This document shows positions 2,033 to 46,092 of a DNA stretch of 64,000 nt, piece after piece (the first letter of the stretch is position 1; every line of letters begins with the position of its first letter). Origin of the DNA: a bacterium (GTDB lineage Bacteria > JAMCPX01); assembly GCA_021792615.1 (NCBI GenBank), contig JAJYUJ010000005.1, positions 23,116 through 87,115 on the forward strand, in the 5' to 3' direction. A model generated the notes under the pieces. That model worked only from the letters and a program-made list of their open reading frames with translations, had not been told where the DNA came from and did no database searches. Made by a program: the position numbers and the translations under genes.

Positions 2033-3739
2033 TCATACACCAGCACCCTGCATCTTTTCCCGGTCGATGGTATCGGGCGTAACCCCTTCTTTTGATAAAA
2101 CACCTTTGATGACCCGCTGGGTTTCTGTCTTCGGCAGTTCCTGCATAATGCGAAAATAACGCGGAATGGCAAACAGGGCGAGGTGTTCTTTCAAAAAGGA
2201 GCTCACTTCTTTGACATCCAGCTTCCCGCCTTCAACCGGTACCACGGCAGCCATAACATCATCCTCGCCAAGCTCCGAAGGTACGCCGTAAACCGCGCAT
2301 TCGAGGATGCCCGGGTACTGCAGAATTGCATGTTCAACCTCATAGGCGGAAATGTTCTCCCCCCTGCGTCTCAGAGATTCCGTTTTCCTGCCGATAAAAT
2401 AGAGATATCCTTTTTTGTCCGCATGGACGAGGTCTCCGGTATGCAGCCATCCGTCCCTGAGTTTCGACGAGGTCGCCTTTTCGTCCTTGTAGTATACCAC
2501 GTCCTTATTGGCTTTTTTGCCGGTGAAGAAAATCAGCTCGCCGGACTGTCCCTGCCGTACGTCCTTGTTCTCATCGTCAACGATCCGGTACTTTGCGCCG
2601 AGCGGCTTGCCCATACTGCCGGCAGGCGCCTGCCCGTAGTTCATGACGATGATACCGCCGCCGTCCACCGCACCGTAACCCTCGATCAGCTGAACGCCGA
2701 ACCGTTTCTCGAACGGCCCCCACATGTCGGACGGGCACGCTGCAGAGAGCACGTGTTTCACCGAGTGATTGCGATCGCCGGCTTGCTGCGGCTGTTTCAT
2801 CAAAATCGGGATGATACCGCCAATAGTGTTGAATACCGTCGCTTTGGTTTCGCGTACCTCGTTCCAGAACCTGCTCGCACTGAATTTCTCCCTGAGCGCT
2901 ACCTGTGCTCCGACGTTCATGGCTGCAGTAACGGTGAGCAGGATCGCGTTCGCATGGAACAGGGGCAGGCAGGTGAAATACACGTCGTCCCTGGTGAGGA
3001 GCACGCGGTTGATAAGCTTCATCTTCCGGACGTTCGTACGTCCGTAAAAGGTCGGTACGCCTTTCGGAAGGCCGGTCGTGCCGGACGTGTAGAGAAGCAT
3101 GCACCGATCGCCTTCCCGCGCGCTCACCCCCGGCTTCGCGGTGCTGATGCCGGGACCGTACGCCTCGTCCAGCACTTGCCGGGACAGAGAGGATGCCGGG
3201 ACCTGTTTGTCGGCACCGTTCGCGGTGATAACGAGCGGAGGCGAAGGAAGATCGCTTTTTATCTTTTCGTAGTACTGCAGGAGTTCCTGATCGATGCACG
3301 CATAACGCGCATCCGAGTGCTTGAATATATGCGCGAGCTGGGTCGAGCGCAGGGCTATGTTCACCGGCACCGCACACATACCGAGCTTTTGCGCACCGAA
3401 GAATACGTCGAGCCATCGCGGTGAATTCTTCATCACGATCGCGATCGCCTGACCGGGTTCTGCACCGAGTCCCCTCAAATAGTTTGCGACCCTGTTTGCG
3501 TTCCCGTCCATCTCCGCATAGGTATATGACCTGCCATAGAAGTCCAGAAACAGCCTGTCTCCGTGCCGGGCCGCGCACTCTTCTAATAGCCCTGCGTGAG
3601 AAACATCGTGCGCTATGGTCAGCTTGCCCCGCGACCGGCTCAGGCGGATGGTATCCCCCAGCGTGCCGCGCCTGAATTCTTCCCATCCCAGCACAACGGC
3701 CCCGGCGAATAATTTCCTCAGAAAGGTAGACGTCTTCAT
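2033..3739 (-). CDS. AMP-forming acyl-CoA synthetase (fatty-acid/CaiC-like ligase)
   Basis: 568 residues from the ATG at 3739; an upstream in-frame extension lies inside the thiolase gene and has no support. It is an ANL-superfamily enzyme that should activate a carboxylic acid with ATP and join it to CoA. The phosphate-binding motif LLYTSGTTGLPKG is at 216-228, the TGD motif at 434-436 and the hinge region IGRKTES just after. The C-terminal A10 motif reads LPKTETQRVIK, so the usual GK catalytic pair appears as QR (Arg about 542) with a Lys three residues on, as in some carnitine-CoA-ligase relatives. It is the last gene of a ten-gene operon, 19 bp after the thiolase stop, with GGAG about 9 nt before the start. 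The substrate is unknown; the context suggests a long-chain or polycyclic acid. Confidence 0.85.
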   Translation of the reverse strand: MKTSTFLRKLFAGAVVLGWEEFRRGTLGDTIRLSRSRGKLTIAHDVSHAGLLEECAARHGDRLFLDFYGRSYTYAEMDGNANRVANYLRGLGAEPGQAIAIVMKNSPRWLDVFFGAQKLGMCAVPVNIALRSTQLAHIFKHSDARYACIDQELLQYYEKIKSDLPSPPLVITANGADKQVPASSLSRQVLDEAYGPGISTAKPGVSAREGDRCMLLYTSGTTGLPKGVPTFYGRTNVRKMKLINRVLLTRDDVYFTCLPLFHANAILLTVTAAMNVGAQVALREKFSASRFWNEVRETKATVFNTIGGIIPILMKQPQQAGDRNHSVKHVLSAACPSDMWGPFEKRFGVQLIEGYGAVDGGGIIVMNYGQAPAGSMGKPLGAKYRIVDDENKDVRQGQSGELIFFTGKKANKDVVYYKDEKATSSKLRDGWLHTGDLVHADKKGYLYFIGRKTESLRRRGENISAYEVEHAILQYPGILECAVYGVPSELGEDDVMAAVVPVEGGKLDVKEVSSFLKEHLALFAIPRYFRIMQELPKTETQRVIKGVLSKEGVTPDTIDREKMQGAGV

Positions 3740-3758
3740 GTGCGATACTCCGGTCTGC

Positions 3759-5153
3759 CTACTTTTCCAGGATATGGATACACAGTGCGGCCTCTTCGTT
3801 GCCGAGTGCTCCGCCGCCGTTCTCTGCCAGCGCAATGTGCGCGTCCCGGACCTGCCGTTTCCCCGCCTCGCCCCTGAGTTGCGTAACAAGCTCGTTGATC
3901 TGCGCAAGGCCCGACGCACCGATGGGATGCCCGCGTGAGAGCAGCCCCCCGGAGGTGTTGATGGGTTTTTTCCCGCCGACCCTGGTCTCTCCCCGCTCCG
4001 CGTATACGCCGCCTTCTCCCTCGGGGAAAAATCCGAGTGCCTCGGTCTGGTGCAGCTCGCCGTACGCGGTCGCATCGTGCACTTCGGCAAGGTCTATGTC
4101 TTTCGGACCCAGCCCCGACTTCTCATACGCAATCCTGCCTGCCCGTTCCCCGATGTCCGGCTCGTCCTGGGTTCGCGTCCGTCCGGATGCAAGCACCGAT
4201 GCCCTGACCTTCACCGCCCGCGCCAGCATGCCCAGCCGTTTCACGACGTCTCCGCTGGCGAGAATTGCAGAAGCGGCACCATCGCCGATCGGTGCGCACA
4301 TCGCCCTCGTGAGGGGATAAGAGACCATGCGGTCGTTGAGGACATCGTCAACGGACACGTCGAAGGTATACTGGGCATTGGGATTCATGGTCGAGTGCCA
4401 GTGGTTCTTCGATGCTATGACGGCGAGCTGCCGCGGCGTGCTGCCGTACTTCTTCATATGTGCCCGTGCAGCAAATGCGTAGACATCCATGAACGGCGAG
4501 TGATCGGCACCCGCTCCCTTGCCGGTGCCATTGAGGCCCGTGAGCAATTTTTTTACATTTCCGTAGCCCATGCTCTCGCCGAGAATGACATACGTTGCAA
4601 ACATGTCCCAGTAGTTCTGCAGTTTTCCGCGCATACCGGCCTTGTTCTTTTTCGTCCGCGGCCTCGTGACGCCGGCCGGTACGTTCTTCGGTACTTCGAG
4701 CATCTCCGGTGCTGTCTTCTTAATATATTCGATCTGATCAAAGATACCGCCCACATCGAGCCCGCTCATAAACCCGGCGAACATCAGGTACTTATTCATC
4801 GCGTAAACCTTTTCCACGCCGATCGCCAGGGACACGTCCGTCATCCCGGACGCGACGTCCTTCCATGCGCTGTGAAAGGCCGTTGACCCTCCGGCGCATG
4901 CGTTTTCGACATTGGTTATGGGTATACCCTCTATGCCGAGGGGCCGCAGGGCGACCTGACCGCGGATACAGTGCTGGAAGTTCCTCATCCCCCAGCCAGA
5001 GTTGGAAAACCATGCGGACTGGATGTCCTTTTTTTCGATACCCGCATCCTTGAATACCCCCTCGATAGTCCAGGCCGCAAGTTCCTTGATGCTGTTATCA
5101 AGGTACCTGCCGAACTTAATGGTGTGCGAACCGATTACATAAACGTCTCTCAT
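3759..5153 (-). CDS. SCP2-type thiolase / acetyl-CoA acetyltransferase-like lipid-transfer protein
   Basis: 464 residues. Thiolase fold with the nucleophile Cys86 in NACAGGS and the C-terminal RGHPIGASG motif carrying the catalytic His. The usual CxG motif near the end is replaced by NGGGALGNEEA, as in the SCP2-thiolase/lipid-transfer branch rather than FadA or PhaA. Members of this branch cleave 3-ketoacyl-CoA or, in steroid catabolism, act as retro-aldolases. It sits between ferredoxin (12-bp gap) and the acyl-CoA ligase (19 bp), so it is probably the chain-shortening step of this operon. The exact reaction is inference. Confidence 0.85.
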   Translation of the reverse strand: MRDVYVIGSHTIKFGRYLDNSIKELAAWTIEGVFKDAGIEKKDIQSAWFSNSGWGMRNFQHCIRGQVALRPLGIEGIPITNVENACAGGSTAFHSAWKDVASGMTDVSLAIGVEKVYAMNKYLMFAGFMSGLDVGGIFDQIEYIKKTAPEMLEVPKNVPAGVTRPRTKKNKAGMRGKLQNYWDMFATYVILGESMGYGNVKKLLTGLNGTGKGAGADHSPFMDVYAFAARAHMKKYGSTPRQLAVIASKNHWHSTMNPNAQYTFDVSVDDVLNDRMVSYPLTRAMCAPIGDGAASAILASGDVVKRLGMLARAVKVRASVLASGRTRTQDEPDIGERAGRIAYEKSGLGPKDIDLAEVHDATAYGELHQTEALGFFPEGEGGVYAERGETRVGGKKPINTSGGLLSRGHPIGASGLAQINELVTQLRGEAGKRQVRDAHIALAENGGGALGNEEAALCIHILEK

Positions 5154-5165
5154 CCTAAAATCCTC

Positions 5166-5489
5166 CTAAAATTTGCGCGGTGGTTCGGCACTGCCGCGGT
5201 CGAGATAATAGAAATGTTTCGTGAATTTAATGAATTCTTTGATCTCTATTGAATGCTGCGGACATATTGCAACACAATCCCCGCATGATATGCAGAACGG
5301 CAATTCTTCGACCATGCGCGCTTTTTTATTCACGACTTCGAGGGAATGGGCCGGACACGGTTTGATACAGTAACCGCATCCGTCACAGGTGTTCTGATCG
5401 ATAACAACAACCCCGAAGGTAACATCCCTGCCGAGCTTATTGAAGCTCTCGATGTATATTCTTTTCTTTATCGTTAAGTGTTCAGACAT
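5166..5489 (-). CDS. 2[4Fe-4S] ferredoxin-like protein
   Basis: 107 residues from the ATG at 5489, chosen because GAGAGG lies 8 nt upstream and this start leaves a 10-bp gap to the nitroreductase. Two classic cluster motifs are present, CDGCGYCIKPCP and CISCGDCVAICP, so it should carry two [4Fe-4S] clusters. About 35 residues precede the first motif, and a C-terminal tail of about 30 residues follows the second. Its place between a flavin nitroreductase-type enzyme and a thiolase suggests it passes electrons to or from the flavoenzymes of the operon. Confidence 0.85.
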   Translation of the reverse strand: MSEHLTIKKRIYIESFNKLGRDVTFGVVVIDQNTCDGCGYCIKPCPAHSLEVVNKKARMVEELPFCISCGDCVAICPQHSIEIKEFIKFTKHFYYLDRGSAEPPRKF

Positions 5490-5499
5490 AGTATGCCTC

Positions 5500-6246
5500 T
5501 CAGTAAACGACTTTAAAGGTTCCATTCTCGCCGAACCAGTCGATCGCCTGCGTTTCCCGGCTGACATTCCCGTCGGGAACCCCGCGCGGATAGCCTATCG
5601 CAATAGACGTAACAAGCTTGTACGGATAGCGGATACCAAGACGTTTCCTCCACTTCGCGTACATCTTCAGCGGCGTCATAAAACTGACCCAGCATGTCCC
5701 CAGACCGTAGCTGTGTGCGGTCAGTACCATGTTCTCTCCTGCAATACCCGTGTCGAGTGACGGGTCACCCGGCGAACGCTTGTCCGCAAGCAGAATGAGC
5801 ACGGTCGGCGCACCATGCCATAATCCAAGTTTTCCATCGGCGATAAGCCGCATGGCTCCGAACGGTACCGGATGGAACATATTCGGCAGAAAGCGCATCA
5901 GGAATTTTGCAACCCATTCCTTATGCTTTGTCCATGAACCGAGGTACCATGCAAACCGCATTACCAGTTTCAACTTTTTTATCACATCATCTTCCATTTC
6001 TTTGATCATCTTCTGGTCCTGCACCACGATAAACTTCCACGGCTGTCCGTTGCCGGCGGATGGTGCAAACCTGCCTGCTTCTATAATCCTCCGGACGATG
6101 TATTCCGGAACTTGTTTGTTTTTCTCATAAAACCGGACGCTCCTGCGGCTGTAAATAACGTTTTCGACGGAATTAAACGCATCACCAGGCTCCGGGAAGC
6201 GGGTACCCGTCTCAGGTGCAATTCGTGTATCATTCAGGTGTATCAT
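5500..6246 (-). CDS. Nitroreductase-family flavoprotein
   Basis: 248 residues from the ATG at 6246, which has AAGGAG 7 nt upstream. A longer version from 6309 would overlap the upstream dehydrogenase and has no such site. The FMN-binding nitroreductase signature is clear (SRRSVRFYEK near the start, RFAPSAGNGQPW, then GIAGENMVLTAHSYGLGTCW). An insertion of about 40 basic and aromatic residues between these motifs is longer than in simple NfsB-type enzymes. Such proteins reduce nitro groups, quinones or enones with NAD(P)H or ferredoxin. With a ferredoxin gene 10 bp downstream, a ferredoxin-linked reduction of an unsaturated intermediate is plausible. Confidence 0.85.
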   Translation of the reverse strand: MIHLNDTRIAPETGTRFPEPGDAFNSVENVIYSRRSVRFYEKNKQVPEYIVRRIIEAGRFAPSAGNGQPWKFIVVQDQKMIKEMEDDVIKKLKLVMRFAWYLGSWTKHKEWVAKFLMRFLPNMFHPVPFGAMRLIADGKLGLWHGAPTVLILLADKRSPGDPSLDTGIAGENMVLTAHSYGLGTCWVSFMTPLKMYAKWRKRLGIRYPYKLVTSIAIGYPRGVPDGNVSRETQAIDWFGENGTFKVVY

Positions 6247-6286
6247 AGGTATTCTCCTTGCGGCACAAATGTATTCTTTGTGATCT

Positions 6287-7414
6287 TTATTGACCTTTCG
6301 CCATCGCACTTACCAGTCCGAGCTTACGCAGGGGGAACAGCCCCAGCAGCGCTTGTACCTGCTTGGCGTCCCGGAAACGCTTCTCCTGACCATAGTCTTT
6401 CATGTAACCGTTACCACCCAGGATCTGTATGCCGTCCGTAGTCAGTTTGCACGCCAGCTCGGACAGGTGCAGTGCAGCGGCACGGGCTGAGAGCCCCCAC
6501 TGCGGGTCCTGCTGATCCACAGCCATCGCAGCCCCGGAAACTACCATGTCCGCTATCCCGGCCTGTACGGCCATGTCACCGAGCAACATGCGCAGTGCCG
6601 ACCAGTTGATAATCTCCCGGCCGCCCTGAAAGCGCTCCTGACTGTAGGAAAGGGCCTCCTGAAATGCACCCTTCATGATACCGCACTGGATGGCGGCAAC
6701 TGCCGCGTGCATTCGGTCGGAAGCATGATCGAAACAACGCGCTCCGTCGCCTTCCTTGCCTACCGGTCTTCCTTCAACCCCTGCAAGTGTAAGATCCACG
6801 CCGGGACATGCATGCAGACCCAGACTGAATATGGGCTCGCTCTTCGTAAGTCCCTTTCCTCCCTGGTCGATGAGAAAGAACGTATACCCGTCCTGACCTT
6901 TGATGCGTGCCGGTACCAGAGCATGACCTGCCATACCGCCAAGAACAACGTATTCGATCGTGCCGCTGAGACTGTAGGTACCACCGGTCCTGACGGCATC
7001 GAGACGGGTTTGGGTCTCGCCGGGGTTGCAGAAAGCCGGGTAAGCGATCAAGGTGGAGCGGGCATCGGTTGCCTGTCCCATGATGTCTTTCAGGGTATCT
7101 TTACCTCCGGCCGCAAGCATAATCTCCTGGGCAAGGACATTGGTAAAAATAATACCGCTCAAGCTGGCGTCCACCGCACTGATCCGGTCGAGGATGACGC
7201 ACAGGGCACCGATGCCCTGCCCGGCACCGCTGCACTCCTCCGGTACGGTTATGCCCAGCAGCCCGGCTTCGTAAGCCCTGGCCACCACGGGATCGAAAAA
7301 AGGTCCGAAGGGGTAGCTGTCGTTGACCTTCCGGTTAGCCGTGAGTTCTCTGACTGCGAAATTGTGTGCCAGGTCTTCAAAAGGTTTTAATTCGGATTTT
7401 ATCGTCGTTAACAT
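6287..7414 (-). CDS. Acyl-CoA dehydrogenase-like subunit lacking the catalytic Glu
   Basis: 375 residues with N-terminal, middle and C-terminal acyl-CoA dehydrogenase domains. The C-terminal signature GGNGYMKDYGQEKRFRDAK is intact. The segment that normally reads YEGT, with the catalytic base, is ALLG here, with Leu357 aligned to that Glu. The family's FAD-contact segment in the middle domain is also poorly kept. It lies 12 bp after a second dehydrogenase gene that does have YEGT. In actinobacterial steroid side-chain degradation, adjacent genes of this kind form alpha2-beta2 enzymes in which one subunit is catalytically incomplete. I infer the same arrangement here; an alternative catalytic Glu elsewhere in the chain remains possible. 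Confidence 0.85.
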   Translation of the reverse strand: MLTTIKSELKPFEDLAHNFAVRELTANRKVNDSYPFGPFFDPVVARAYEAGLLGITVPEECSGAGQGIGALCVILDRISAVDASLSGIIFTNVLAQEIMLAAGGKDTLKDIMGQATDARSTLIAYPAFCNPGETQTRLDAVRTGGTYSLSGTIEYVVLGGMAGHALVPARIKGQDGYTFFLIDQGGKGLTKSEPIFSLGLHACPGVDLTLAGVEGRPVGKEGDGARCFDHASDRMHAAVAAIQCGIMKGAFQEALSYSQERFQGGREIINWSALRMLLGDMAVQAGIADMVVSGAAMAVDQQDPQWGLSARAAALHLSELACKLTTDGIQILGGNGYMKDYGQEKRFRDAKQVQALLGLFPLRKLGLVSAMAKGQ

Positions 7415-7426
7415 GGTTACCTCCGC

Positions 7427-8935
7427 CTATTCATCAAATGAACGGGCCTGCGGGATGGAACTCCCGATCAGGTTATTGAAAAGGTTGATACGGTTCAACT
7501 GATTGGTGCCTTCGTAGATCTGCAGGAGCTTGGAGTCCCGCAGGAACTTTTCGGCACCGCGCTCGTGCCGCAGTCCGGCCTGTCCCATCAACTCAACGGC
7601 CATCTGGCTGTTCTTTACTCCCATGTCTGTTCCTACGATTTTTGCCAGAGACGCCCACCCGGAACAGCGCTGCTGCACCTCCATGGACTGGCTGTCCACA
7701 AAAAGCCTGCGGAATATCCGCTGTGTGATCTCAAAGTCCAGGAGCGGGCTTATCAGGTAATTAAAAATGAATTTCGGCGCGTACTTCTGGTAATAATAGA
7801 CCGGCTTTCGCTGGAGGATATTGTAGATGCCCCCCGGCAGCCCGTTGGCATAGTTCGCCTCGGTATAGCTCAGCCTGCCGATGACGACGTTCTTGTACAT
7901 CTCCGCCAGCATTGCCTGGGCCCACTCATGGTTGATGAGGAGCTTTCCGTCGACCTCGGTCTCGCCGGCGAACTTGAGGGCCGTCTCGTATGCCCCCCTG
8001 GCCACGCCGGTACCGAACGCCCCGACTGCCGGCCTGGTGACTGAGACAACAAAATGGATATACTGCTCTATGAGGTCCGCAATCGGCCGTGTCCCGAAGC
8101 CCTCCCGTATGCGGGAATCTCTCAGGACATATTCATCCGGTATAAAACAATCTTCAAAGATCAATTCGCTTGCTGGGCATGCCCGCTGGCCCATTTTGTC
8201 CTCGTGCTTGCCGAAGGTAAATCCTTTCGTACCGGTCCTGACCGCAAACGTCACGGTATTTTCCGAGGCCTTTTTCAGGTCCGAATAGGCTATGAGGCAG
8301 CACCATTCGGAGACATGACCCATGGAAATGAAGATCTTGCTTCCGTTCACGATATAACCGCCCTTGACCTTCTCGGCGTGGCAGTTCAGACGGGCACGGT
8401 CGATCAGCTCATTCTCTTCCACATCCGTACCCGCGCCGGGCTCTGTTAAAGCAAGGGAAATGATGCACGGTTTGCCGGTCTTTTGTCCCCTGACCACCTC
8501 CCTGAATATCTTGTTGGCAAGGGACACGTTCCATGAAGCGAGGATCCCCGCCACACCAAGATAGTGGACAAAGACCACGTTTGCTATGCCTACGCAGGCC
8601 GAGGAAAGCTCTTCGACCACATACGCGCTGGCAGGCATGTTGAACCCCTGCCCGCCGAACAACTTCGGAATAAACATGGTGTAAAAACCCCATTCATTGG
8701 CCTTTTTGACAAGGTCCCAGGGCAGGTACTCCGGGTCAGCATGCGTCTGCCGGTCAATCTCGAGTGCATGCGGCCGGACGACCTCATCGTTGAATTTTTT
8801 TGCCAGGGCAACGGCCTTTCGGGTTTCTTTCAGCATACCCCTGGGTAGTTTCGGCATGGCCTGCAAACTGAACAGGCTTTCATCGAAGCGCGATTCACGG
8901 TCCGGCAAAGATTTACTTCCTTCCGGTGAAATCAT
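7427..8935 (-). CDS. Acyl-CoA dehydrogenase (catalytic Glu present)
   Basis: 502 residues from the ATG at 8935, chosen for GGAGGAG immediately upstream; a further 28 in-frame residues are unsupported. All three acyl-CoA dehydrogenase domains are recognisable: helical N-terminus, middle beta domain (LALTEPGAGTDVEEN) and C-terminal four-helix domain ending with LRDSKLLQIYEGTNQLNR, where Glu475 is the expected catalytic base. At about 500 residues it is longer than the usual 380, with an extra region between the middle domain and the C-terminal signature (about 350-430). It should introduce an alpha-beta double bond in an acyl-CoA with FAD as acceptor. It lies 16 bp after the ADC-like gene and 12 bp before the Glu-less partner. 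Confidence 0.9.
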   Translation of the reverse strand: MISPEGSKSLPDRESRFDESLFSLQAMPKLPRGMLKETRKAVALAKKFNDEVVRPHALEIDRQTHADPEYLPWDLVKKANEWGFYTMFIPKLFGGQGFNMPASAYVVEELSSACVGIANVVFVHYLGVAGILASWNVSLANKIFREVVRGQKTGKPCIISLALTEPGAGTDVEENELIDRARLNCHAEKVKGGYIVNGSKIFISMGHVSEWCCLIAYSDLKKASENTVTFAVRTGTKGFTFGKHEDKMGQRACPASELIFEDCFIPDEYVLRDSRIREGFGTRPIADLIEQYIHFVVSVTRPAVGAFGTGVARGAYETALKFAGETEVDGKLLINHEWAQAMLAEMYKNVVIGRLSYTEANYANGLPGGIYNILQRKPVYYYQKYAPKFIFNYLISPLLDFEITQRIFRRLFVDSQSMEVQQRCSGWASLAKIVGTDMGVKNSQMAVELMGQAGLRHERGAEKFLRDSKLLQIYEGTNQLNRINLFNNLIGSSIPQARSFDE

Positions 8936-8951
8936 AACTCCTCCTTTATCC

Positions 8952-9722
8952 TCAATCGTCGATGAGGTTCCTCGGCGGAAACAGGACCATCTCATTGACC
9001 GGTATATACTGGAACACAAGCGGTTTTTTGCTCAAACCTATACTGTTCAGTTCCATGGCTATTTTGTGGTCATTGCCGATATCGAGCACCGCCGCATTCC
9101 TGTCCATGGTCTGCTTGAATTCGATGGGATTTGTATAGATGTTCGCGCAAAGGGGTACGCCGTCTTTCACGGAATAAGTCTTGAACCTGAGTGTCTTACC
9201 CTGTGAAGTGCTTTGTTTTTTGCCCCGGAGTGAAAGGATCTTTTTGCCGTTCTCGGAAAGCGTACATTCGAGATACTCCTTTTCCCTCTTGAAGGCTATG
9301 TCCGCAATGAATTTTGGATAGCCGTAAAGCTCCACACCGGCATATCGGGCTATCTCCGTTGTAACAGGCAGGTGCCAGACATATGCATGGAAGCAGTGCT
9401 TGCCCATATCCGATAGTATCGTAATGCCCGGCACAGGCTTTTTACCGAAACCGATTATAATGGAGATGCTGAACTCATTGTACGGATCGATGTCCGTTTT
9501 ACGGTACTCGAACGCCGAGAATCCGACAAGACACCTTCCGGGGAATACCTCTGCAGGATGCATATCCGGATGCGGCAGGTATTTCTTCACCTTTTTTGTC
9601 GAGGCTGTGAATATTGCCGTCATGGCGGTGTTGTCGTAATAAAATACCGGGATCGTGCCTTTAAACCCCGATTCGTTCTGAACCTCCCATTGAACAATAC
9701 CCTTGAACAGTTCTCCTTTCAT
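8952..9722 (-). CDS. Acetoacetate decarboxylase-family protein
   Basis: 256 residues, close to the family length. ADC-like features include FSAFEYRKTDIDPYNEFS, the region holding active-site acids in true acetoacetate decarboxylase, and LYGYPKFIADIAF, where Lys137 aligns with the Schiff-base Lys. True decarboxylases have a second Lys directly after it to lower the pKa; here it is Phe. Proteins of this superfamily lacking the second Lys often do other Schiff-base chemistry such as aldol or dehydratase reactions. AAGGAGGAACAT directly precedes the ATG region, and the gene is 10 bp from the SDR stop. The function in the operon is unknown: decarboxylation of a beta-keto acid or an aldolase-type step. 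Confidence 0.75.
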   Translation of the reverse strand: MKGELFKGIVQWEVQNESGFKGTIPVFYYDNTAMTAIFTASTKKVKKYLPHPDMHPAEVFPGRCLVGFSAFEYRKTDIDPYNEFSISIIIGFGKKPVPGITILSDMGKHCFHAYVWHLPVTTEIARYAGVELYGYPKFIADIAFKREKEYLECTLSENGKKILSLRGKKQSTSQGKTLRFKTYSVKDGVPLCANIYTNPIEFKQTMDRNAAVLDIGNDHKIAMELNSIGLSKKPLVFQYIPVNEMVLFPPRNLIDD

Positions 9723-9732
9723 ATGTTCCTCC

Positions 9733-10659
9733 TTATTTTGCTTTCAGGCTATCCACCATCTCGATAAACGCCTCTTCTGCCGTTTTTGTCGGCCTCCAGT
9801 GCAGATCTTTTTCGGCCTTTGCATTGCTTATGTTCATCGGATACCTGCCGAGTTCGACCCAATGGCTTGAAAAACTCATAATGCCGAGCTTGAAATTCAG
9901 GTCCGCAAGTACCTTTGCGATCCTGTAGGGAATGCCGATCGCTTTTTTATCCAATATCTCAGACATCCTCTTGATAGTCAGGGCACCGGTGTGGATATTG
10001 AAAGCACCGGGATGGTCCTCGATAATGGCTGTAAAAAATGCACTGCTTACATCACCTTCATACACCAGCGGCAACCCGTATGTATTCCCCCGCACGTACG
10101 TTATCACCGGAAACTTAACGACATCTGCGAAAAAGTTGTTGACATTTTTGCCGCAGAAAATGGAAGGGCGCATCCTCGTAAGGATCATGTTTGGATTTTT
10201 TCTTTCAAACTCATCGAGCATCCCTTCAACGATCCGTTTGGTGTCTGAATAATAGGAAGCTTTATTCCCCTGAAGGGGAGAATCCTCGGTAATCGTATAA
10301 TCACGATCAACACAACCATACGCTGCAACACTGCTTGCGATGACCAGTTTCCCGGGTTTATTTTCCTCACAGGAGGCGAGGAGATTTTTTGTTCCGTTGA
10401 GATTGATATCATAGGTGAGCTTCTTGTCTTTTATCTCCTGAACAATGAAGGTCAGGTGAACAATGGTATCACAGCCTTTCAGCGCGTTTCCCAGGGCATT
10501 ATCCCGCACATCGCACCGGACAAAGGTGAGCTTCTTATGCTGGAACAAAGGCTCCTTCAGATCGATACCGGTTATGGATTCGACCGCATCGCTGCGTACG
10601 AGGGATTTTGTGAGGAGCGTGCCCAGATAGCCGGATATACCGGTTATGCCTACCTTCAT
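9733..10659 (-). CDS. NAD(P)-dependent epimerase/3beta-HSD-like SDR
   Basis: 308 residues of the extended short-chain dehydrogenase type. The Rossmann motif GITGISGYLG is at residues 4-13, the Asp after strand 2 (GIDLKE) suggests NAD, and the catalytic YYSDTK (YxxxK) follows an SSVAAYG serine motif. Family members epimerise nucleotide sugars or oxidise 3-hydroxy groups of steroids and isoprenoids; the setting among acyl-CoA genes favours the second kind. The start overlaps the TetR stop by 4 bp (ATGA), so the two are translationally coupled. Confidence 0.8.
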   Translation of the reverse strand: MKVGITGISGYLGTLLTKSLVRSDAVESITGIDLKEPLFQHKKLTFVRCDVRDNALGNALKGCDTIVHLTFIVQEIKDKKLTYDINLNGTKNLLASCEENKPGKLVIASSVAAYGCVDRDYTITEDSPLQGNKASYYSDTKRIVEGMLDEFERKNPNMILTRMRPSIFCGKNVNNFFADVVKFPVITYVRGNTYGLPLVYEGDVSSAFFTAIIEDHPGAFNIHTGALTIKRMSEILDKKAIGIPYRIAKVLADLNFKLGIMSFSSHWVELGRYPMNISNAKAEKDLHWRPTKTAEEAFIEMVDSLKAK

Positions 10660-11288
10660 GACCCGCTCCTTTCTCTGTGAATGCCGTCGAGCGTAAAACT
10701 TACGAGAATTTTTACCAGTTCATCCCGTTCATATCCATCGTAAATATACAATTGTGCAACCTGCGAAAGCATTCCAACCATCGCCCATCCAATGGTTTTA
10801 GCCTCCAGACGCTTCATGGGCCTGATGAATCCAAGCTGGGACGCGGTCAAAACCCTTATGCTCGTGTCTTCTGCAATGTTCTTATAGGTCTGCCATAAAA
10901 TACCCGCCAATTCTTCATTGTGGCTCAAGCCTTCGCGGAAAAGGATCATGAAGTGGCTTCTGTAATTGTCCACATACTCGAAGAACGAACTGTATATGGC
11001 GTGCTGTGCGGTGGTTATGTCCCCGGGGCCGGCTGTCCTGCCTTTAAATGACTCCAGTTGTTTTTGAAACACATCCTCTATGTAATTTCTCAACTCAGAG
11101 CCTATTCGTACAACCGCTTCGCCGAACACATGGGATTTGTCTTTGAAGTACAGGTAAAACGTTCCGGTACCAACACCTGCTTTCTTTGTAATCATAGGAA
11201 CGGTTGTCTTTCTGAATCCCTTTGCCCCTATTACCTTGATTGCCGCATCTATCAAGCGCCTCTTGATAATCTCTTTTTTATTTACCAT
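10656..11288 (-). CDS. TetR-family transcriptional regulator
   Basis: 210 residues. The N-terminal helix-turn-helix is typical of TetR/FadR-like repressors (RRLIDAAIKVIGAKGFRKTT, then GVGTGTFYLYFKDKSHV). The rest is a helical ligand-binding domain. GAGAGG sits 7 nt before the ATG. It lies second in the operon, 27 bp after the oleate hydratase gene and overlapping the SDR by 4 bp. It is therefore most likely the operon's own repressor, released by a fatty acid, acyl-CoA or related lipid. The ligand is inference. Confidence 0.9.
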   Translation of the reverse strand: MVNKKEIIKRRLIDAAIKVIGAKGFRKTTVPMITKKAGVGTGTFYLYFKDKSHVFGEAVVRIGSELRNYIEDVFQKQLESFKGRTAGPGDITTAQHAIYSSFFEYVDNYRSHFMILFREGLSHNEELAGILWQTYKNIAEDTSIRVLTASQLGFIRPMKRLEAKTIGWAMVGMLSQVAQLYIYDGYERDELVKILVSFTLDGIHRERSGS

Positions 11289-11315
11289 ATCGATCCTCTC
11301 GGAAACGCATCGAAC

Positions 11316-12935
11316 TTACCTGAGCAGGGTGGGAAGCATCTTGAACAATGCCAGAGGGTTATTGACCTGCGTGTAAACCGGAGGGACCTTCTCACCTGTA
11401 TTTAAAAGATTACTCACTGCTATTTTCGCACATCTGATCGAAGACTCGACCAGCATGACGCATTCTCCGCTCTCGGTAAACTGCCCCATAAAAGCAAGGT
11501 TGGTCGATCCTTGCGGTACTACCTGTGGCCTGTCGCTCCTTTTTCTCGGCAAAAAGTGACTCATGACATACGGCAGCATCGCCGGGACACAGGTCGAATT
11601 CTTGAGGATGAGCGGCAGCTCTTTATCAAACCCAAGATGGCCGCACACTTCCGTCATGATGTCCTCACCGTTGCATTCGGACATCTTCTTGTTTACATAG
11701 TTTCCCTTTTCAAACGGCATAAATCCGCATGCGGCCCATATATATCTGCCATTGGGCTGATTACGGAAGTGCGGCTGGGCGGGGACAAGCACCGACGAAT
11801 GCCAGTTGGACTCTGTTAACGTTACCATGTTTGCCTGGCCAGGCTTGTTTCCGGTAAACTTTTCGTACAAATTTATAAATGTCCGGTCCCTGCTGTCTAC
11901 CATGAAAATCATCCACGCGGACTGATCTCTATGACTGTCGAAATTAGCAGGATTGCCCAGTCCGGAACCCGGACGTTTTTTTACGATATTTTCCCAGAGT
12001 GTCCATGAGCCGTCCAGTTTCCCGCTTTCAAGGGCTGCCGGTTCCGTTACGGAACCCCGTCTCAAATCTGCAACCATCGATCCGTTGGTGACGAATACAA
12101 AGTCATTGTCTCCGACATCAATCTTTTCGTTTTTTCCGTTTCTTGCATAGTAGAAGCGTTCAACGGTCAACTCGTCCTGTACCGGTTTAAAATCGAGGTC
12201 TGTTACCTTGCACCGCATCTCAAAATGAACGCCTTTTTCTTCCAGCCATTTCCGCATTGGCTCGGTCATTGAATTATAATTATTGTACGGTGTGACCACT
12301 TCCGCCCTGCCGCTCACCATTTTATGGACATCCTGCATAAATCTGCGCGCATAGCGCTTCATCTCAACAAGATCATTCCAATACTCGATGGCAAACATCG
12401 AAGAAAAAACCTTCCAGAAATTGGTAGTAAAAAAGGTGGGATCGAACCATGAGTCAATCCGGCGGTTCTCGATCCGGCTTTCCGGGATGTATACCAGCTT
12501 TAACAACTTGCCCAGATGCTTCCATTTCAACCCCATGGACTCCGCATTATCGGTGCGTTGATGGGCATGGATTAAGCGCGATCTGGCGTTCTTTTTGTGT
12601 TTATCGTTATATTCGAAAATTTCATCCGTGACCGATTTATCCGGTTGATCCAAAGAAGGTATCTCCGATAAGACATCCCAGGTACAATTGTAGACCTTAC
12701 GATGAAACTTCCAGTCGCCGAACGTAAAGTAACTCGTATCAGGCGTGCCTTCACCGTATAAACTCCCGCCAACACTTTCCCGTCCCTCAAAAATATGGAT
12801 ATTCTTCCCCGAAACGTGTGCATCCCTCACAGCAAAAATAGCTGCGGACAAACCGGCCATTCCGCCTCCGGCAATATAGACCTTCGTTTTATCCGTTACA
12901 GCGGGGACCCGTCCGACAACACCTTTCACCTTCAT
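11316..12935 (-). CDS. ohyA: Oleate hydratase (myosin-cross-reactive antigen family)
   Basis: 539 residues, slightly shorter than most members (560-650). It starts with the FAD dinucleotide-binding motif KVYIAGGGMAGLSAAIFAVRD. The hydratase family hallmarks follow: HIFEGRESVGGSLYGEG, RSRLIHAHQ and WWxT-type aromatic stretches around HRKVYNCTWDVL. These FAD enzymes add water to cis-9 double bonds of free fatty acids to give 10-hydroxy acids. It is the first gene of the operon, with AAGGAGG 10 nt before the ATG and a promoter candidate at 13031-13058. Its presence suggests that unsaturated fatty acids are either the substrate or a toxic signal that this operon handles. Confidence 0.9.
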   Translation of the reverse strand: MKVKGVVGRVPAVTDKTKVYIAGGGMAGLSAAIFAVRDAHVSGKNIHIFEGRESVGGSLYGEGTPDTSYFTFGDWKFHRKVYNCTWDVLSEIPSLDQPDKSVTDEIFEYNDKHKKNARSRLIHAHQRTDNAESMGLKWKHLGKLLKLVYIPESRIENRRIDSWFDPTFFTTNFWKVFSSMFAIEYWNDLVEMKRYARRFMQDVHKMVSGRAEVVTPYNNYNSMTEPMRKWLEEKGVHFEMRCKVTDLDFKPVQDELTVERFYYARNGKNEKIDVGDNDFVFVTNGSMVADLRRGSVTEPAALESGKLDGSWTLWENIVKKRPGSGLGNPANFDSHRDQSAWMIFMVDSRDRTFINLYEKFTGNKPGQANMVTLTESNWHSSVLVPAQPHFRNQPNGRYIWAACGFMPFEKGNYVNKKMSECNGEDIMTEVCGHLGFDKELPLILKNSTCVPAMLPYVMSHFLPRKRSDRPQVVPQGSTNLAFMGQFTESGECVMLVESSIRCAKIAVSNLLNTGEKVPPVYTQVNNPLALFKMLPTLLR

Positions 12936-13030
12936 AGTACGTTACCCTCCTTGAGCTGAAATTAAAAAAATATCTCTGAAAAATATCTTTCAATAAGCAT
13001 CTCCCTGAAAGCGCCCCCACTAAAATTAGC

Positions 13031-13058
13031 TTTTTACACATATTCCATGCGATGTCAA
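13031..13058 (-). promoter_or_regulatory. Candidate promoter of the oleate-hydratase operon
   Basis: Minus-strand perfect -35 TTGACA (13053-13058), 16-nt spacer, weak -10 TAAAAA (13031-13036). It lies about 95 bp upstream of the hydratase ATG in AT-rich DNA. No clear TetR palindrome was found by eye. Confidence 0.4.
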
Positions 13059-13295
13059 GAAAAATATATTCAGTATTATTGATTATGTTATATCCATATT
13101 TTACATGTAGTTACATTATATATATGAATATTATTTCATATTTATTTCTCTTTTGTGAATTAACTTATAAAAAATATGCGTTTGATAAATAGGAAAGTTT
13201 ATGCAATGAACGAGGGGGTATCCACCCGGCAGTGAAGGGGCGAGCGTCAAATAAAGGTAGTCTTCGAAAATCCGGGAAAAGAAACACAGAAGTTC

Positions 13296-13399
13296 TGTCA
13301 TTGCAGGCCGACGGGCACACAGCGAAGCTGGGTCGAGCAATCCCTATGCTTGTAGATTGCTTCGTCTTCCCGCCTCCGGCTGGACTCCTCGCAATGACA
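13296..13399. repeat. Dispersed palindromic intergenic repeat, copy 1
   Basis: An imperfect inverted repeat running from TGTCATTGCAGG to CCTCGCAATGACA, with inner arms GAGCAATC / GATTGCTTCG around a short loop. The element class (CATTGCGAGG...GCAATGAC) is widespread in bacterial intergenic DNA. A second, inverted copy of its left half lies at 36983-37028. It sits in the 613-bp gap 12936-13548, which holds no gene. Confidence 0.7.
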
Positions 13400-13427
13400 A
13401 GCTTACAGAGGACTTAAACCTCGTCTT

Positions 13428-13548: not shown

Positions 13549-14022
13549 TTACGTTCCCTGCACCTTGCGGCCAAGGCGTTCTCTCTGACGCATCTCGCCC
13601 TGCTGCCATCGCTCGCGCTCTTCATCTGATACCAGCGATAGACGCGGGACCTCTACGGGACGTCCCTCTCCATTCAGTGCAACGTAGACGATATACGCCC
13701 GGTTCGTTATTCTTCGTCTGCCGGTTAGGATCTCTTCCGCTTCGACCACAACCTCTGTTTCCATGGAGGTGCGGCCCACATATGTAAGACGTGCACTGAA
13801 AGTGACAAGGTCACCTATATGGACGGGCTCAAGAAATGTAAGGGAATCCACGGCAACCGTGACAGCCGGTTCCCTTGCATGACGTGTGGCACACATAGCA
13901 CCGGCATCATCCATAAGCTTCATGAGCACACCACCGTGTATATTGCCGAGGTTGTTTGCGTGCTCGGGCTGCATAAGCTGGCTCAAAACGAGTTCAGAAT
14001 CTTTAACCTTTTTGGCTTCCAT
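13549..14022 (-). CDS. Hotdog-fold acyl-CoA thioesterase (YciA/ACOT type)
   Basis: 157 residues. A single hotdog domain with the family signature N.GNIHGGVLMKLMDDAGAMCA, where the HGG loop and Asp place the catalytic site. The usual strand FLEPVHIGDLVTFSARLTYVGRTSME follows. The enzyme hydrolyses acyl-CoA to free acid and CoA. GAAAGGATACTTTCT precedes the ATG (SD AAAGG). It stands alone between the dcw cluster and the oleate-hydratase operon; a hairpin at 14069-14096 lies in the leader region. Its lipid-related role fits the next-door acyl-CoA operon, but it is not transcribed with it on the evidence here. Confidence 0.85.
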   Translation of the reverse strand: MEAKKVKDSELVLSQLMQPEHANNLGNIHGGVLMKLMDDAGAMCATRHAREPAVTVAVDSLTFLEPVHIGDLVTFSARLTYVGRTSMETEVVVEAEEILTGRRRITNRAYIVYVALNGEGRPVEVPRLSLVSDEERERWQQGEMRQRERLGRKVQGT

Positions 14023-14068
14023 AGAAAGTATCCTTTCTCTTTTTTATCATTTAAAAGCCGTTCTACCC

Positions 14069-14100
14069 TTTTCAGTAACGGTTTTTGTTTAAATATAATC
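14069..14100 (-). terminator. Possible hairpin terminator downstream of purM
   Basis: On the minus strand AAACCGTTA...AACGGCTTTT can form an 8-bp stem with a 14-nt loop followed by TTTT. It is about 170 bp past the purM stop, and the T-tract is short, so it may end the dcw transcript. Confidence 0.3.
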
Positions 14101-14271
14101 CTCAAAAGTGAATTGGGAAGACTGGCCCTCGTGAAAACGGGGTGAAGGAAGGTTGTGCTCAGAATACTCTGTAGTAAAAAGAACTTGTTTTTGCGGGCAG
14201 AAACGAATAACTCTGTCATCAGTACGGACAAACAAACCTTTGTATAGTATGTTCCGGGTTACTCTTCGATA

Positions 14272-15303
14272 TTATATAAATTCCACCCTTTGCATTTTTT
14301 CGCCAAAGCGGCGCATTTCCCCTATGACAAATGCCTTCTGCCGCTGGGCTCGTATTGTGGTTAAGGCCTTTTGAGCGCTGTTCTTGTCCACAACGAGTAC
14401 CATACCGAGTCCGTTATTGAATGTCCTTATCATCTCCATGTCATCGACATTGCCGAGCCCCTTGATCATCTCAAAGACCACTGGCCTGTCCCATGAATCC
14501 GTTTCAATAACAGCACTGAACTGTTTCGGGAAGACGCGCGGCAGGTTTTCGGTTATACCGCCCCCTGTTATGTGCGCCGCTGCCTTTATGAGCTTTTGTT
14601 GTACCAGCTTTTCTATGACCCGCACATAGATGATCGTCGGCTTGAGCAGCTCTTCACCGAGGGTGCACCCGAGCTCATCGATATAAGCGCCGAGCTTCAT
14701 CTTTTTCTTTTCGAGGAGTACATACCGTGCCAGGGAATAACCGTTGCTGTGGAGCCCGCTGGAGCCTATGCCGATCAGCACATCCCCCTGCCGTATCGCA
14801 GACCCGTCTATGATCCTGTCTTTCTCGACAACGCCGGTCACAAATCCTGCAAGGTCATACTCGTCGTCCGCATAAAAACCGGGCAGTTCCGCTGTTTCTC
14901 CTCCTATCAATGTACAATCGGCCTGTTTACATCCGTTCACGATCCCCTTCACGATATCCGTAACGATGTCGAGACGGATCTTCGATGTGGCTATATAATC
15001 GAGGAACACCGCGGGCCGCGCTCCGTTCACCACGATATCGTTCACATTCATGGCCACGAGATCGATGCCGACCGTATCGTGAATGTCCATCTCAAAGGCG
15101 ATCTTGAGTTTTGTTCCCACACCGTCGGTCGACGTGACTATCACCGGATGCCTGTACTGCCTCCTGTCTATCTCAAACAGGCCTGCAAAACCGCCGATGC
15201 CCGACAGTACGCCTTTTTTGATGGTACTCCGCGCCAAAGGCTTTATCCGTTCGACAAAGGCATTGCCCTTGTCTATACTGACACCGGCATCGCTGTACTT
15301 CAT
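14272..15303 (-). CDS. purM: Phosphoribosylformylglycinamidine cyclo-ligase
   Basis: 343 residues, the normal length. AIR synthetase converts FGAM and ATP to AIR, the fifth step of purine synthesis. Family motifs are present: KYSDAGVSIDKGNAFVERIK at the start, TDGVGTKLKIA, VGIDLVAMNVNDIVVNGA, TLIGGETAELPG and HITGGGITENLPRV. The start is 1 bp after the ftsZ stop, with the SD inside the end of ftsZ, so it must be read from the same transcript. A purine gene as the last member of the division cluster is unusual; it has no purine-pathway neighbours here. Confidence 0.95.
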   Translation of the reverse strand: MKYSDAGVSIDKGNAFVERIKPLARSTIKKGVLSGIGGFAGLFEIDRRQYRHPVIVTSTDGVGTKLKIAFEMDIHDTVGIDLVAMNVNDIVVNGARPAVFLDYIATSKIRLDIVTDIVKGIVNGCKQADCTLIGGETAELPGFYADDEYDLAGFVTGVVEKDRIIDGSAIRQGDVLIGIGSSGLHSNGYSLARYVLLEKKKMKLGAYIDELGCTLGEELLKPTIIYVRVIEKLVQQKLIKAAAHITGGGITENLPRVFPKQFSAVIETDSWDRPVVFEMIKGLGNVDDMEMIRTFNNGLGMVLVVDKNSAQKALTTIRAQRQKAFVIGEMRRFGEKMQRVEFI

Positions 15304-15304
15304 G

Positions 15305-16456
15305 TTAATCTGCTTTCTTTCTCAGAAATGTGGGAATATCGAGTTCATCTTCGTCATATCCGGTCAGCATGACCTTTTTAACGGATTTCACAGAATCGAT
15401 CTCGTCTATCTTTTTATCCGTGCGCTTAAACGCCGGGATATCCCTGTCTCCGTTGTTGTGGATAACCGAAAGCTTGCCCGGGTACTTGTCCTTCGTATTC
15501 CTCTCTCCGAAGCCGGTCGCAATCACCGTAACATTGAGGTTTTCACCCATATTGTCGTCAATGACCGTGCCGTAGATCACATTGGCATTTTCATCGACCT
15601 GTTCCTTGACAAGCTCGCATGCCTCTTTCACTTCGTTGAGCGTAAGGGACGCATCGCCGGTAATATTGATCAACACACCTTTCGCACCGTTTATGGATAT
15701 ATCCTCGAGCAAGGGGTTCGATATGGCTTCCTGAGCAGCATCCTTTGCCCTCTTCTCACCGCCGCTTTTCCCGGTACCCATCATGGCCATACCCATCTCG
15801 CCCATGACCGTTTTTACATCGGCAAAATCAACATTCACGAGCCCCGGGATTGTTATGATGTCCGATATGCCTCTGACGGCATGAACGAGCACATCATCAA
15901 CCTTCACGTAGGCTTCGAGTACCGTGGTCTTATTATCCGAGATATTGAACAACCGGTCGTTCGGAATAACGATCAGGGTGTCGACATACTGGCTCAGCTC
16001 TTCGATGCCCTTTTCCGCCTTTGAAATTCTCTTCTTCCCTTCAAATTCGAACGGCTTGGTCACTACGGCCACGACGAGCGCACCGAGAGACTTGGCGAGC
16101 TCCGCTATTACCGGACTTGCGCCGGTCCCGGTTCCTCCTCCCATACCCGCGGTCAGGAAGATCATGTCGGCACCGGTCAACGCATCTTTTATCTTCGCCT
16201 CATCCTCCAACGCTGCTTCTTTCCCAATGTCCGGATTTGCACCAGCACCGAGCCCTTTCGTCAATTTGGCGCCGAGCTGAATTTTGTAGGTCGCCTTGTT
16301 TCTCGTCAGCACCTGCATATCCGTATTGGCAGCAATAAAGTCTACACCTTTCATTCCCTGCTTTATCATTGTATTCACGGCATTTCCTCCGCCGCCGCCC
16401 ACACCAATCACCTTGATCTTTGCAGAATGATGATACTCATTACTTAACTCAAACAT
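15305..16456 (-). CDS. ftsZ: Cell division GTPase FtsZ
   Basis: 383 residues from the ATG at 16456, chosen for the strong AAAAGGAGG upstream; an extra 7 residues are possible. The tubulin signature GGGTGTG is at 106-112, the N-terminal [15 protein letters not shown] nucleotide loop is intact, and the C-terminal conserved peptide [14 protein letters not shown] should bind FtsA. FtsZ polymerises at midcell and directs septal wall synthesis. The start is 1 bp after the ftsA stop, and its SD overlaps the last ftsA codons. Confidence 0.98.
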
Positions 16457-16457
16457 T

Positions 16458-31417: not shown

Positions 31418-31418
31418 C

Positions 31419-31739
31419 CTACCTGTCTATTGATAGTAACTGTTTGCTGTCCGGATAAACCATATTCAACCTCGTTTTCGCTATCGTTTCGATCCTGCTC
31501 CTGCTTTTGAGCGTGGCTATTTCAAGATTGTACTTATCGATCTGCTCGGTCAAGTTCTGTGTTTGTAAAGCCAGCGCGGACATCCGGTAACTTGCCGCTA
31601 TGAAGTTTATCCGGCTCCATATCAGGATCAGGGTAAAGAAAAGGATCACCGCAAGCGTTATGAGGATCTTGAATGGAGCTATACTTATTGCCGGTACTGC
31701 CTGATAATCTATTGCTCTGTTATCTGCATAAGCTTTCAT
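31419..31739 (-). CDS. ftsL: FtsL-like division protein
   Basis: 106 residues. A short cytoplasmic N-terminus, one membrane helix (about 26-46, ILITLAVILFFTLILIWSR), then a periplasmic coiled coil (about 50-85) ending ARTRLNMVYPDSKQL-like AKTRLNMVYPDSKQ, which matches FtsL. Sequence conservation in this family is low; position between rsmH and ftsI, size and topology make the call. Confidence 0.85.
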   Translation of the reverse strand: MKAYADNRAIDYQAVPAISIAPFKILITLAVILFFTLILIWSRINFIAASYRMSALALQTQNLTEQIDKYNLEIATLKSRSRIETIAKTRLNMVYPDSKQLLSIDR

Positions 31740-31752
31740 ATACTATTACCTC

Positions 31753-46058: not shown

Positions 46059-46092
46059 ACTGCGGATTATTTCCCGGCAAAACGTAAAAATA

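Follow-up and report, generated by a model that had tools for sequence, protein, structure and literature searches.

A composite ten-gene operon for acyl-CoA metabolism encodes a probable heteromeric acyl-CoA dehydrogenase and an oleate hydratase-like protein that lacks the catalytic loop

Results

We analyzed a stretch of 64,000 nucleotides from an uncultured bacterial lineage (contig JAJYUJ010000005.1 of assembly GCA_021792615.1, positions 23,116 to 87,115; hereafter the window) and within it a ten-gene operon that runs along the minus strand from position 12935 down to position 2033. In order of transcription, the genes encode an oleate hydratase (OhyA)-like flavin adenine dinucleotide (FAD) protein, a TetR-family regulator, a short-chain dehydrogenase/reductase (SDR), a protein resembling acetoacetate decarboxylase (ADC), two acyl-coenzyme A (acyl-CoA) dehydrogenases (ACAD1 and ACAD2), a nitroreductase-family flavin mononucleotide (FMN) protein, a ferredoxin, an SCP2-type thiolase and an acyl-CoA ligase (Table 1). 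All ten genes are intact, with no internal stops, and the gaps between them, from the OhyA-like gene to the ligase gene, are 27, −4, 10, 16, 12, 40, 10, 12 and 19 bp. Good ribosome-binding sites lie upstream of most of the ten starts, and 124 bp separate the end of the ligase gene from the next gene. For four genes a later start is likelier than that of the longest frame: ACAD1 (8935), nitroreductase (6246), ferredoxin (5489) and ligase (3739). The first-pass annotation of the window had described ten minus-strand genes with gaps of at most 40 bp, a description that these distances (−4 to 40 bp) bear out. Pfam and NCBIfam profiles, which we used to assign the ten proteins to families, matched every one of the ten families it had named, with one label, that of oleate hydratase, needing correction because the protein scores below the cut-off and has lost a critical loop. 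The ligase scored 464 bits against PRK06155, under the cut-off of that model.

Table 1. Features of the operon and its leader.
Feature	Position in window	Strand	Length and evidence
OhyA-like (MCRA family) FAD protein	11316..12935	-	539 aa; Pfam MCRA, 1.4e-163; alignments with solved oleate hydratases and relatives
TetR-family regulator	10656..11288	-	210 aa; TetR_N, 5.4e-14
Extended SDR (epimerase/3beta-HSD-like)	9733..10659	-	308 aa; Pfam Epimerase, 3.4e-23
ADC-like protein	8952..9722	-	256 aa; Pfam ADC, 5.7e-17
ACAD1, predicted catalytic subunit	7427..8935	-	502 aa; acyl-CoA dehydrogenase by Pfam/NCBIfam
ACAD2, predicted non-catalytic partner	6287..7414	-	375 aa; acyl-CoA dehydrogenase by Pfam/NCBIfam
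Nitroreductase-family FMN protein	5500..6246	-	248 aa; Nitroreductase, 2.9e-31
2x[4Fe-4S] ferredoxin	5166..5489	-	107 aa; Fer4_7, 1.9e-11
SCP2-type thiolase	3759..5153	-	464 aa; Pfam/NCBIfam; Cys in NACAGG, HDAT, GHPIGASG
ATP-dependent acyl-CoA ligase	2033..3739	-	568 aa; AMP-binding, 4.4e-66
Operon leader with TTTTCTTGACA promoter-like block and AT-rich partial palindromes	12936..13145	-	cross-genome conservation; putative regulatory region

The host genome is 2.54 Mb in size and 99.55% complete. We designate compared genomes, compared loci and contigs by G, L and C numbers, respectively, with G000 being the host. The named relatives are metagenome-assembled genomes (MAGs), among them JAKAHI01 (G003, 'bacterium isolate WY2.bin9') and JAMCVD01 (G008, 'Deltaproteobacteria bacterium'). 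A dsrA match above cut-off was present in seven of the nine genomes of the family, and the host genome had a strong match to COX1.

The two acyl-CoA dehydrogenases divide between them the residues expected of one active site. ACAD1 of the window keeps the TEPGAGTD motif and the catalytic glutamate (in YEGT) and has lost the FAD arginine and the GGxGY motif; ACAD2 has lost the glutamate and the TEP motif and keeps R..GG and GGNGY. This division held among their homologues. The glutamate, within Y/F-E-G-T or a close form, was found in every aligned ACAD1 row that covered the site, the exceptions being paralogues not adjacent to an ADC-like gene, and in 0 of 31 ACAD2 rows. When these proteins were aligned jointly with ordinary ACADs, TEPxxGSD was present in 42 of 42 ACAD1 sequences, in which the FAD arginine and GGxGY were degenerate, and the FAD arginine and GGxG were present in all 31 ACAD2 sequences, in which the TEP motif was lost. 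Because the losses of Glu/TEP and of FAD Arg/GGxGY are complementary, ACAD1 and ACAD2 look like halves of one enzyme. In the alpha2beta2 steroid ACADs, the glutamate likewise resides in one subunit alone and each interface holds one FAD (PMC8399759); as judged from these residues, ACAD1 and ACAD2 probably constitute a single alpha/beta enzyme of this kind. We also considered whether ACAD2 might use an alternative glutamate of the isovaleryl-CoA-dehydrogenase type and rejected this idea, as our reading of alignments to Protein Data Bank sequences placed no glutamate near that position.

With ChsE4–ChsE5, ChsE1–ChsE2, Scd1AB and IpdE1–IpdE2, the pair shares adjacent genes, a glutamate in one subunit and complementary loss of FAD half-sites. 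It differs from these steroid enzymes in having ADC-like partners in several phyla, a large insert in ACAD1 and no special closeness in sequence: ACAD2 scored 66 bits against the solved steroid ACAD 6wy8 and 125 bits against general ACADs, and the IpdE2 model, whose cut-off is 450 bits, returned 34.6 bits. By these comparisons the pair falls outside the ChsE/IpdE-type families of steroid ACADs.

A sequence search of solved structures returned no orthologue of the ADC-like protein, and its relatives emerged from a fold search alone, for which we used an AlphaFold model built from 57 homologues (predicted local distance difference test score of 96). The nearest folds were the acetoacetate decarboxylases 3c8w, 3bgt and 3bh2 (Z 24), followed by MppR, Swit_4259 and a Streptomyces aldolase-dehydratase (Sbi_00515) at Z 20–21. 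Lys137, within the sequence YPKF, is invariant across the 57 homologues and aligns to the first lysine of the PKK motif of 3c8w, with a weak E-value and with the agreement of the fold. The lysine pair of acetoacetate decarboxylase proper is absent, the second lysine being replaced by phenylalanine (PKF). Thus, the protein shares with the acetoacetate decarboxylase superfamily its fold and a Schiff-base lysine, whereas it differs in identity (11–16%), in reading YPKF rather than PKK, and in its context of an ACAD pair and an SDR. That it is a Schiff-base enzyme is a sound inference.

To survey the surroundings of such proteins we scanned 84,980 species genomes and kept 80 ADC-like loci, 62 of which were flanked on each side by 3 kb or more and entered the neighbor test. 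A same-strand ACAD lay within 3 kb of the ADC-like gene in 35 of the 62, and ACAD matches were concentrated there, with 56 on the same strand (and 3 on the opposite strand) at 0–3 kb compared with 3 on the same strand beyond 4 kb. The carriers include Desulfobacterota, Myxococcota, Actinomycetota, Pseudomonadota, Gemmatimonadota and Hydrogenedentota, together with one ADC–ACAD1 pair in a Heimdallarchaeota MAG, and the SDR, ADC-like and ACAD genes occur together in other phyla without the remaining genes of the operon. The order of these genes varies among loci (SDR-ADC-ACAD, SDR-ACAD-ACAD-ADC and ACAD2-ACAD1-ADC), and the association therefore points to function over simple descent. Two subfamilies of SDR adjoin ADC-like genes in ~20 loci: in L013, L032, L038, L039 and L041 the ADC-like and ACAD genes are accompanied by the extended type found in the window, and in about a dozen others the ADC-like gene adjoins one of the classical type. 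The SDR of the window also matches the 3Beta_HSD model. An old-yellow-enzyme-type reductase adjoins it in two loci.

A literature search found no description of the ADC/ACAD pairing, which is the most interesting part of the operon. We propose, with a confidence somewhat short of an even chance, that an ADC-like protein and a reciprocally degenerate heteromeric ACAD, in some loci with an SDR, form a widespread system, present in several bacterial phyla and one Heimdallarchaeota MAG, that may couple isomerization of an oxo-acyl double bond to dehydrogenation or saturation and to which, in this genus, a ferredoxin-linked enone reductase and an OhyA-like protein with an altered active site have been added.

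Some ADC-like loci had other surroundings. Plasmid-borne relatives in Moraxella, Acinetobacter, Nostoc and Shinella had differing contexts and were set aside, with only the old-yellow-enzyme reductase of Shinella and the SDR of Nostoc being informative. In L028, L034, L035 and L036 the ADC-like gene (49–58% identical) adjoins a gene for an amine-oxidase-family flavoprotein of 630 residues that bears a signal like that for twin-arginine translocation, and no solved relative of this flavoprotein was found. An actinobacterial MAG carries a tandem pair of ADC-like and ACAD1 sets (L050:9938-16028).

The last four genes of the operon have a counterpart elsewhere. A paralogous cluster in the host genome (C49; L149:8911-14937) and in G004 and G007 (also loci L150 and L162) has the order SCP2 protein, ACAD, ligase, ferredoxin-nitroreductase and SCP2 thiolase, with ferredoxin and nitroreductase fused into one protein and a thiolase 51% identical to that of the window. 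The fused paralogue supports ferredoxin-fed nitroreductase chemistry on acyl-CoA. The thiolase of the window keeps its nucleophilic cysteine (NACAGG) as well as HDAT and GHPIGASG; because HDAT stands where the steroid aldolases Ltp2 and Sal carry YDHF or YDCY (PMC12329534), we read this SCP2 protein as a thiolase. It shares the cysteine, HD and GHPxGA with the type-1 enzyme 6hsj and with BbsB of the benzoylsuccinyl-CoA thiolase 7pxp, but differs from both in that its HN motif reads EN, no DUF35 partner is encoded among the ten genes, and it has a genus-specific insert. This insert of ~50–65 residues (approximately residues 146–213; window 4515-4717) is kept in the genus and absent from the 412-residue paralogues.

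The OhyA-like protein is a full-length member of the MCRA family (545.8 bits to the Pfam model and 350 bits to 4ia5), yet it scored 534.5 bits against the NCBIfam oleate hydratase equivalog, under the cut-off of 567. In Staphylococcus aureus OhyA the loop RGGREM supplies Glu82 for catalysis and Arg81 for gating (PMC7948970), and in two Rhodococcus families the loop is RGGRML (PMC7306040). In the window this active-site loop, RGGRE(M) in oleate hydratases, reads FGDWKF, and the equivalent of Tyr201 is retained. The altered loop recurs as FGDWKF in G003 and G004, as LGDWKF in G002 and as RGDRKF in the unrelated genomes G047 and G192 (64–65% identity), in neither of which was any of the window's other operon genes found nearby. 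Compared with S. aureus OhyA, Lactobacillus acidophilus 4ia5 and HFam1-11, the protein thus preserves full-length homology, the GxGxxG FAD motif and the Tyr201 equivalent, and differs in its loop and its sub-cut-off score. Given the loss of the RGGR loop we rejected a canonical oleate hydratase, and given a ratio of nonsynonymous to synonymous substitution rates (dN/dS) of 0.06–0.15 (0.06 against G004) we rejected a pseudogene. By its sequence, the protein belongs to a divergent clade under purifying selection, for which oleate hydration should not be assumed. In G004 an alpha/beta hydrolase gene follows the OhyA-like gene (L136:3453-4301), and a similar gene follows it in G005:C185 (L142:12794-13751). 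The C-terminus of the G005 OhyA-like protein is 97% identical to that of the window although G005 represents another genus, which suggests either recent transfer or a binning error.

The TetR-family regulator, whose gene adjoins the OhyA-like gene also in G001 and G002, resembles fatty-acid regulators only in its DNA-binding part (47 bits to FadR, cut-off 200). Upstream of the OhyA-like gene, the last 130 bp of the leader, including TTTTCTTGACA, are nearly identical in G003, and TTTTCTTGACA also precedes the OhyA-like gene in G002, beside the inverted repeat ATTCACTATA/TATAGTGAAT. From this conservation the leader appears to be a candidate promoter overlapped by a putative TetR operator. Cross-species conservation was more useful here than a promoter and terminator scan, which placed promoter-like sites at chance level and terminator-like sites mostly within genes. 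Directly upstream of the leader lies a dispersed repeat of ~140 bp (CATTGCGAGGAG type; window 13285-13425), matched in full or in part at 19 places of the genome; it was not seen at the corresponding place in G003.

The operon as a whole is a composite of conserved pieces. ACAD1, ACAD2, nitroreductase, ferredoxin, SCP2 thiolase and ligase are syntenic within the genus as far as contigs reach: G003 retains ADC through thiolase, G001 retains ACAD1 through ligase, and in G002 the block is split over two contigs, one with ACAD2 through thiolase and the other with thiolase through ligase. Other species of the genus thus keep the block in the same order, and dN/dS against genus members is 0.04–0.15 for the measurable genes (0.135–0.146 for ACAD2); the arrangement is not due to chance. 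The nitroreductase gene is contiguous with the ferredoxin gene in G001, G002 and G003. The OhyA-like gene varies in position: it precedes TetR in the window, in G001 and in G002 but directly follows the ligase gene in G004. The genes that follow OhyA-TetR in G001 and G002 are neither SDR nor ADC. The complete ten-gene set was found in the host genome only, with fragments consistent with it in G003. The refuting condition named in the first-pass annotation, that homologous neighborhoods would not keep the ten genes together, thus held in part: the full set is confined to the host, the six-gene core is kept in the genus, and the SDR/ADC/ACAD portion recurs in other phyla.

As the first-pass annotation had noted, neither an enoyl-CoA hydratase nor a 3-hydroxyacyl-CoA dehydrogenase of the usual type is encoded among the ten genes. 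Its conclusion that the operon does not serve ordinary beta-oxidation does not follow: elsewhere the genome has seven clear matches to ECH_1 (and one weak match) and three strong matches to 3HCDH_N, with one such pair adjoining an ACAD on contig 31. The genome has 17 Acyl-CoA_dh_N matches. Because hydratase and dehydrogenase genes exist elsewhere, the steps missing from the operon do not exclude beta-oxidation.

Discussion

The operon is real and biologically coherent, a new assembly of known kinds of parts, and our results support the earlier view of one compact unit for unusual acyl-CoA metabolism in which the SDR and the ADC-like protein supply the odd steps. By analogy, its best functional template is the conjugated linoleic acid (CLA) pathway, by which gut lactobacilli hydrate, rearrange and saturate polyunsaturated fatty acids. 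The enzymes of that pathway, CLA-HY, CLA-DH, CLA-DC and CLA-ER, are an oleate hydratase, an SDR, an isomerase of the acetoacetate decarboxylase family and an enone reductase of the nitroreductase family, and in Lactiplantibacillus plantarum cla-dh, cla-dc and cla-er share one operon (PMC11719350, PMC9241672, PMC13365329). The same four families are represented here, all four of them in one operon compared with three of four there. The present operon differs in its extended SDR, its distant nitroreductase paired with a ferredoxin, its OhyA-like protein with the loop lost, its additional ligase, ACAD pair and thiolase, and its TetR in place of LysR/ArgR2 control.

We propose that the ten genes work together as a single composite operon for the catabolism of a long-chain acid that is unsaturated or oxygenated. 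For this full CLA-based model our confidence lies somewhat under an even chance; it is much higher for the anatomy of the operon and for the ACAD pair. What the sequence supports is the gene order, the families, the ACAD half-sites, the lysine, the thiolase residues, the loss of the OhyA loop and purifying selection, and from these we infer the substrates, the reactions, their order and their regulation. The operon would join three sets: OhyA-like protein and TetR; SDR, ADC-like protein and alpha/beta ACAD; and nitroreductase, ferredoxin, SCP2 thiolase and ligase. The ligase would activate the acid. The OhyA-like protein might add or remove water at an isolated double bond, or merely bind such a lipid, and the SDR would interconvert hydroxyl and ketone. 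Through its Schiff-base lysine the ADC-like protein might then shift a neighboring double bond into conjugation with the ketone, and the nitroreductase, fed by ferredoxin, could saturate the resulting enone. The heteromeric ACAD, with ACAD1 predicted to be catalytic and ACAD2 to give the other FAD half-site, would then shorten the chain together with the SCP2 thiolase, using a hydratase and a hydroxyacyl-CoA dehydrogenase presumably encoded elsewhere in the genome. TetR would derepress the operon upon binding a lipid ligand. Overall, internal unsaturation or oxygenation would be processed so that beta-oxidation could proceed.

Several observations weigh against this model. The parallel to the CLA pathway holds at the level of families, as it does for the ADC-like protein and CLA-DC. 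The nitroreductase matched CLA-ER (4qlx) with an E-value of 4.4e-4, ~49 other solved sequences scoring better, so that it does not qualify as an orthologue of CLA-ER, and its neighborhood ties it to the thiolase and ligase rather than to the ADC-like gene. Descriptions of CLA-DH call it a short-chain dehydrogenase, which sets it apart from the extended SDR of the operon. The substrates would differ too: those of the CLA enzymes are free fatty acids, and the presence of a ligase in the operon implies CoA esters. The loop of the OhyA-like protein has lost both arginines and the glutamate, and the first CLA step may therefore not occur; moreover, no OhyA-like gene was found beside an ADC-like gene in loci outside the genus. 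Finally, it is the gaps alone that suggest a single transcript for the ten genes.

Other readings assign the ADC-like protein or the whole unit a different chemistry. If the ADC-like protein genuinely decarboxylated beta-keto acids, or if it were an aldolase/dehydratase of the pyruvate type, ketones would be made or broken, the SDR would reduce them and the ACAD pair would act on acyl-CoA. The ranking of its fold matches, with decarboxylases nearest and the MppR, Swit_4259 and aldolase-dehydratase group next, agrees with this proposal, as does the retained lysine; the phenylalanine in place of the second PKK lysine does not, and the recurring ACAD, SDR and ene-reductase neighbors suit double-bond chemistry better, which leaves it unlikely in our judgment. 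The first-pass annotation had suggested a polycyclic or hydroxylated substrate, and one can picture the SCP2 thiolase, heteromeric ACAD, 3beta-HSD-like SDR and ligase degrading the side chain of a steroid, bile acid, other polycyclic compound or isoprenoid: steroid side chains are the substrates of known alpha2beta2 ACADs (PMC8399759), 3Beta_HSD is among the models that the SDR matches, the paralogous cluster contains an SCP2 lipid-transfer protein, and the ADC-like protein weakly resembles 25-phosphosteroid lyase in structure (Z 6.5). That Z score, however, falls in the common background, and both steroid markers that we tried were negative, with no IpdE2 above cut-off in the nine family genomes and no HsaA in the host genome. 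The thiolase carries HDAT and not an aldolase motif, the solved steroid ACAD is no nearer a relative of ACAD2 than general ACADs are, and a DUF35 partner is absent from the ten genes. We consider a steroid or polycyclic substrate improbable.

Thiolases and some ACAD-family enzymes can run reductively, which raises the prospect of a biosynthetic or lipid-remodeling unit in which these enzymes, working in the synthetic direction, would yield a modified membrane lipid or a storage compound. Nitroreductase and ferredoxin could provide the electrons, and ADC-SDR-ACAD sets are found in lineages of diverse lifestyle. The dedicated acyl-CoA ligase and the FadR-like helix-turn-helix of TetR nevertheless point to catabolism, as do the Acyl-CoA_dh_N matches and other beta-oxidation genes in the genome, and we give such a unit little chance. 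Least probable of all, and in our view very unlikely, is that the genes serve no joint pathway, being genes of general acyl-CoA metabolism united by regulation only, with the OhyA-like protein as a lipid sensor or scavenger. The restriction of the full set to the host genome, the differing position of the OhyA-like gene in G004 compared with G001 and G002, and the loss of its catalytic loop are what this explanation would lead one to expect, but the tight gaps, the conserved six-gene core, the fusion of ferredoxin and nitroreductase in the paralogue and the association of ADC, ACAD and SDR across phyla all speak for joint function.

Three of these findings were absent from the first-pass annotation: the parallel to the CLA pathway, the reciprocity of the two ACADs and the missing loop of the oleate hydratase-like protein. 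If the CLA-based model is true, the hydratase-SDR-ADC-reductase chemistry of gut lactobacilli is not restricted to them, and a dsrA-carrying, uncultured lineage from the environment can use it to supply beta-oxidation. Through the ADC/ACAD pairing, a testable function would likewise be on offer for proteins annotated as 'acetoacetate decarboxylase family' without one, and pairs of 'acyl-CoA dehydrogenases' in many genomes would be predicted to be single heteromeric enzymes. The automatic label 'oleate hydratase' can mislead where the RGGR loop is missing.

Additional features of the window

Upstream of the operon, window positions 13549-32634 hold genes for a YciA-like thioesterase and PurM and a division and cell-wall (dcw) cluster (ftsA, murC, ftsW, murD, a penicillin-binding protein and a MraW-family methylase). 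Farther along, a class A RNase P RNA (298 bits; 46091-46455) lies near a gene for a sodium/proton-translocating pyrophosphatase (47524-49695).

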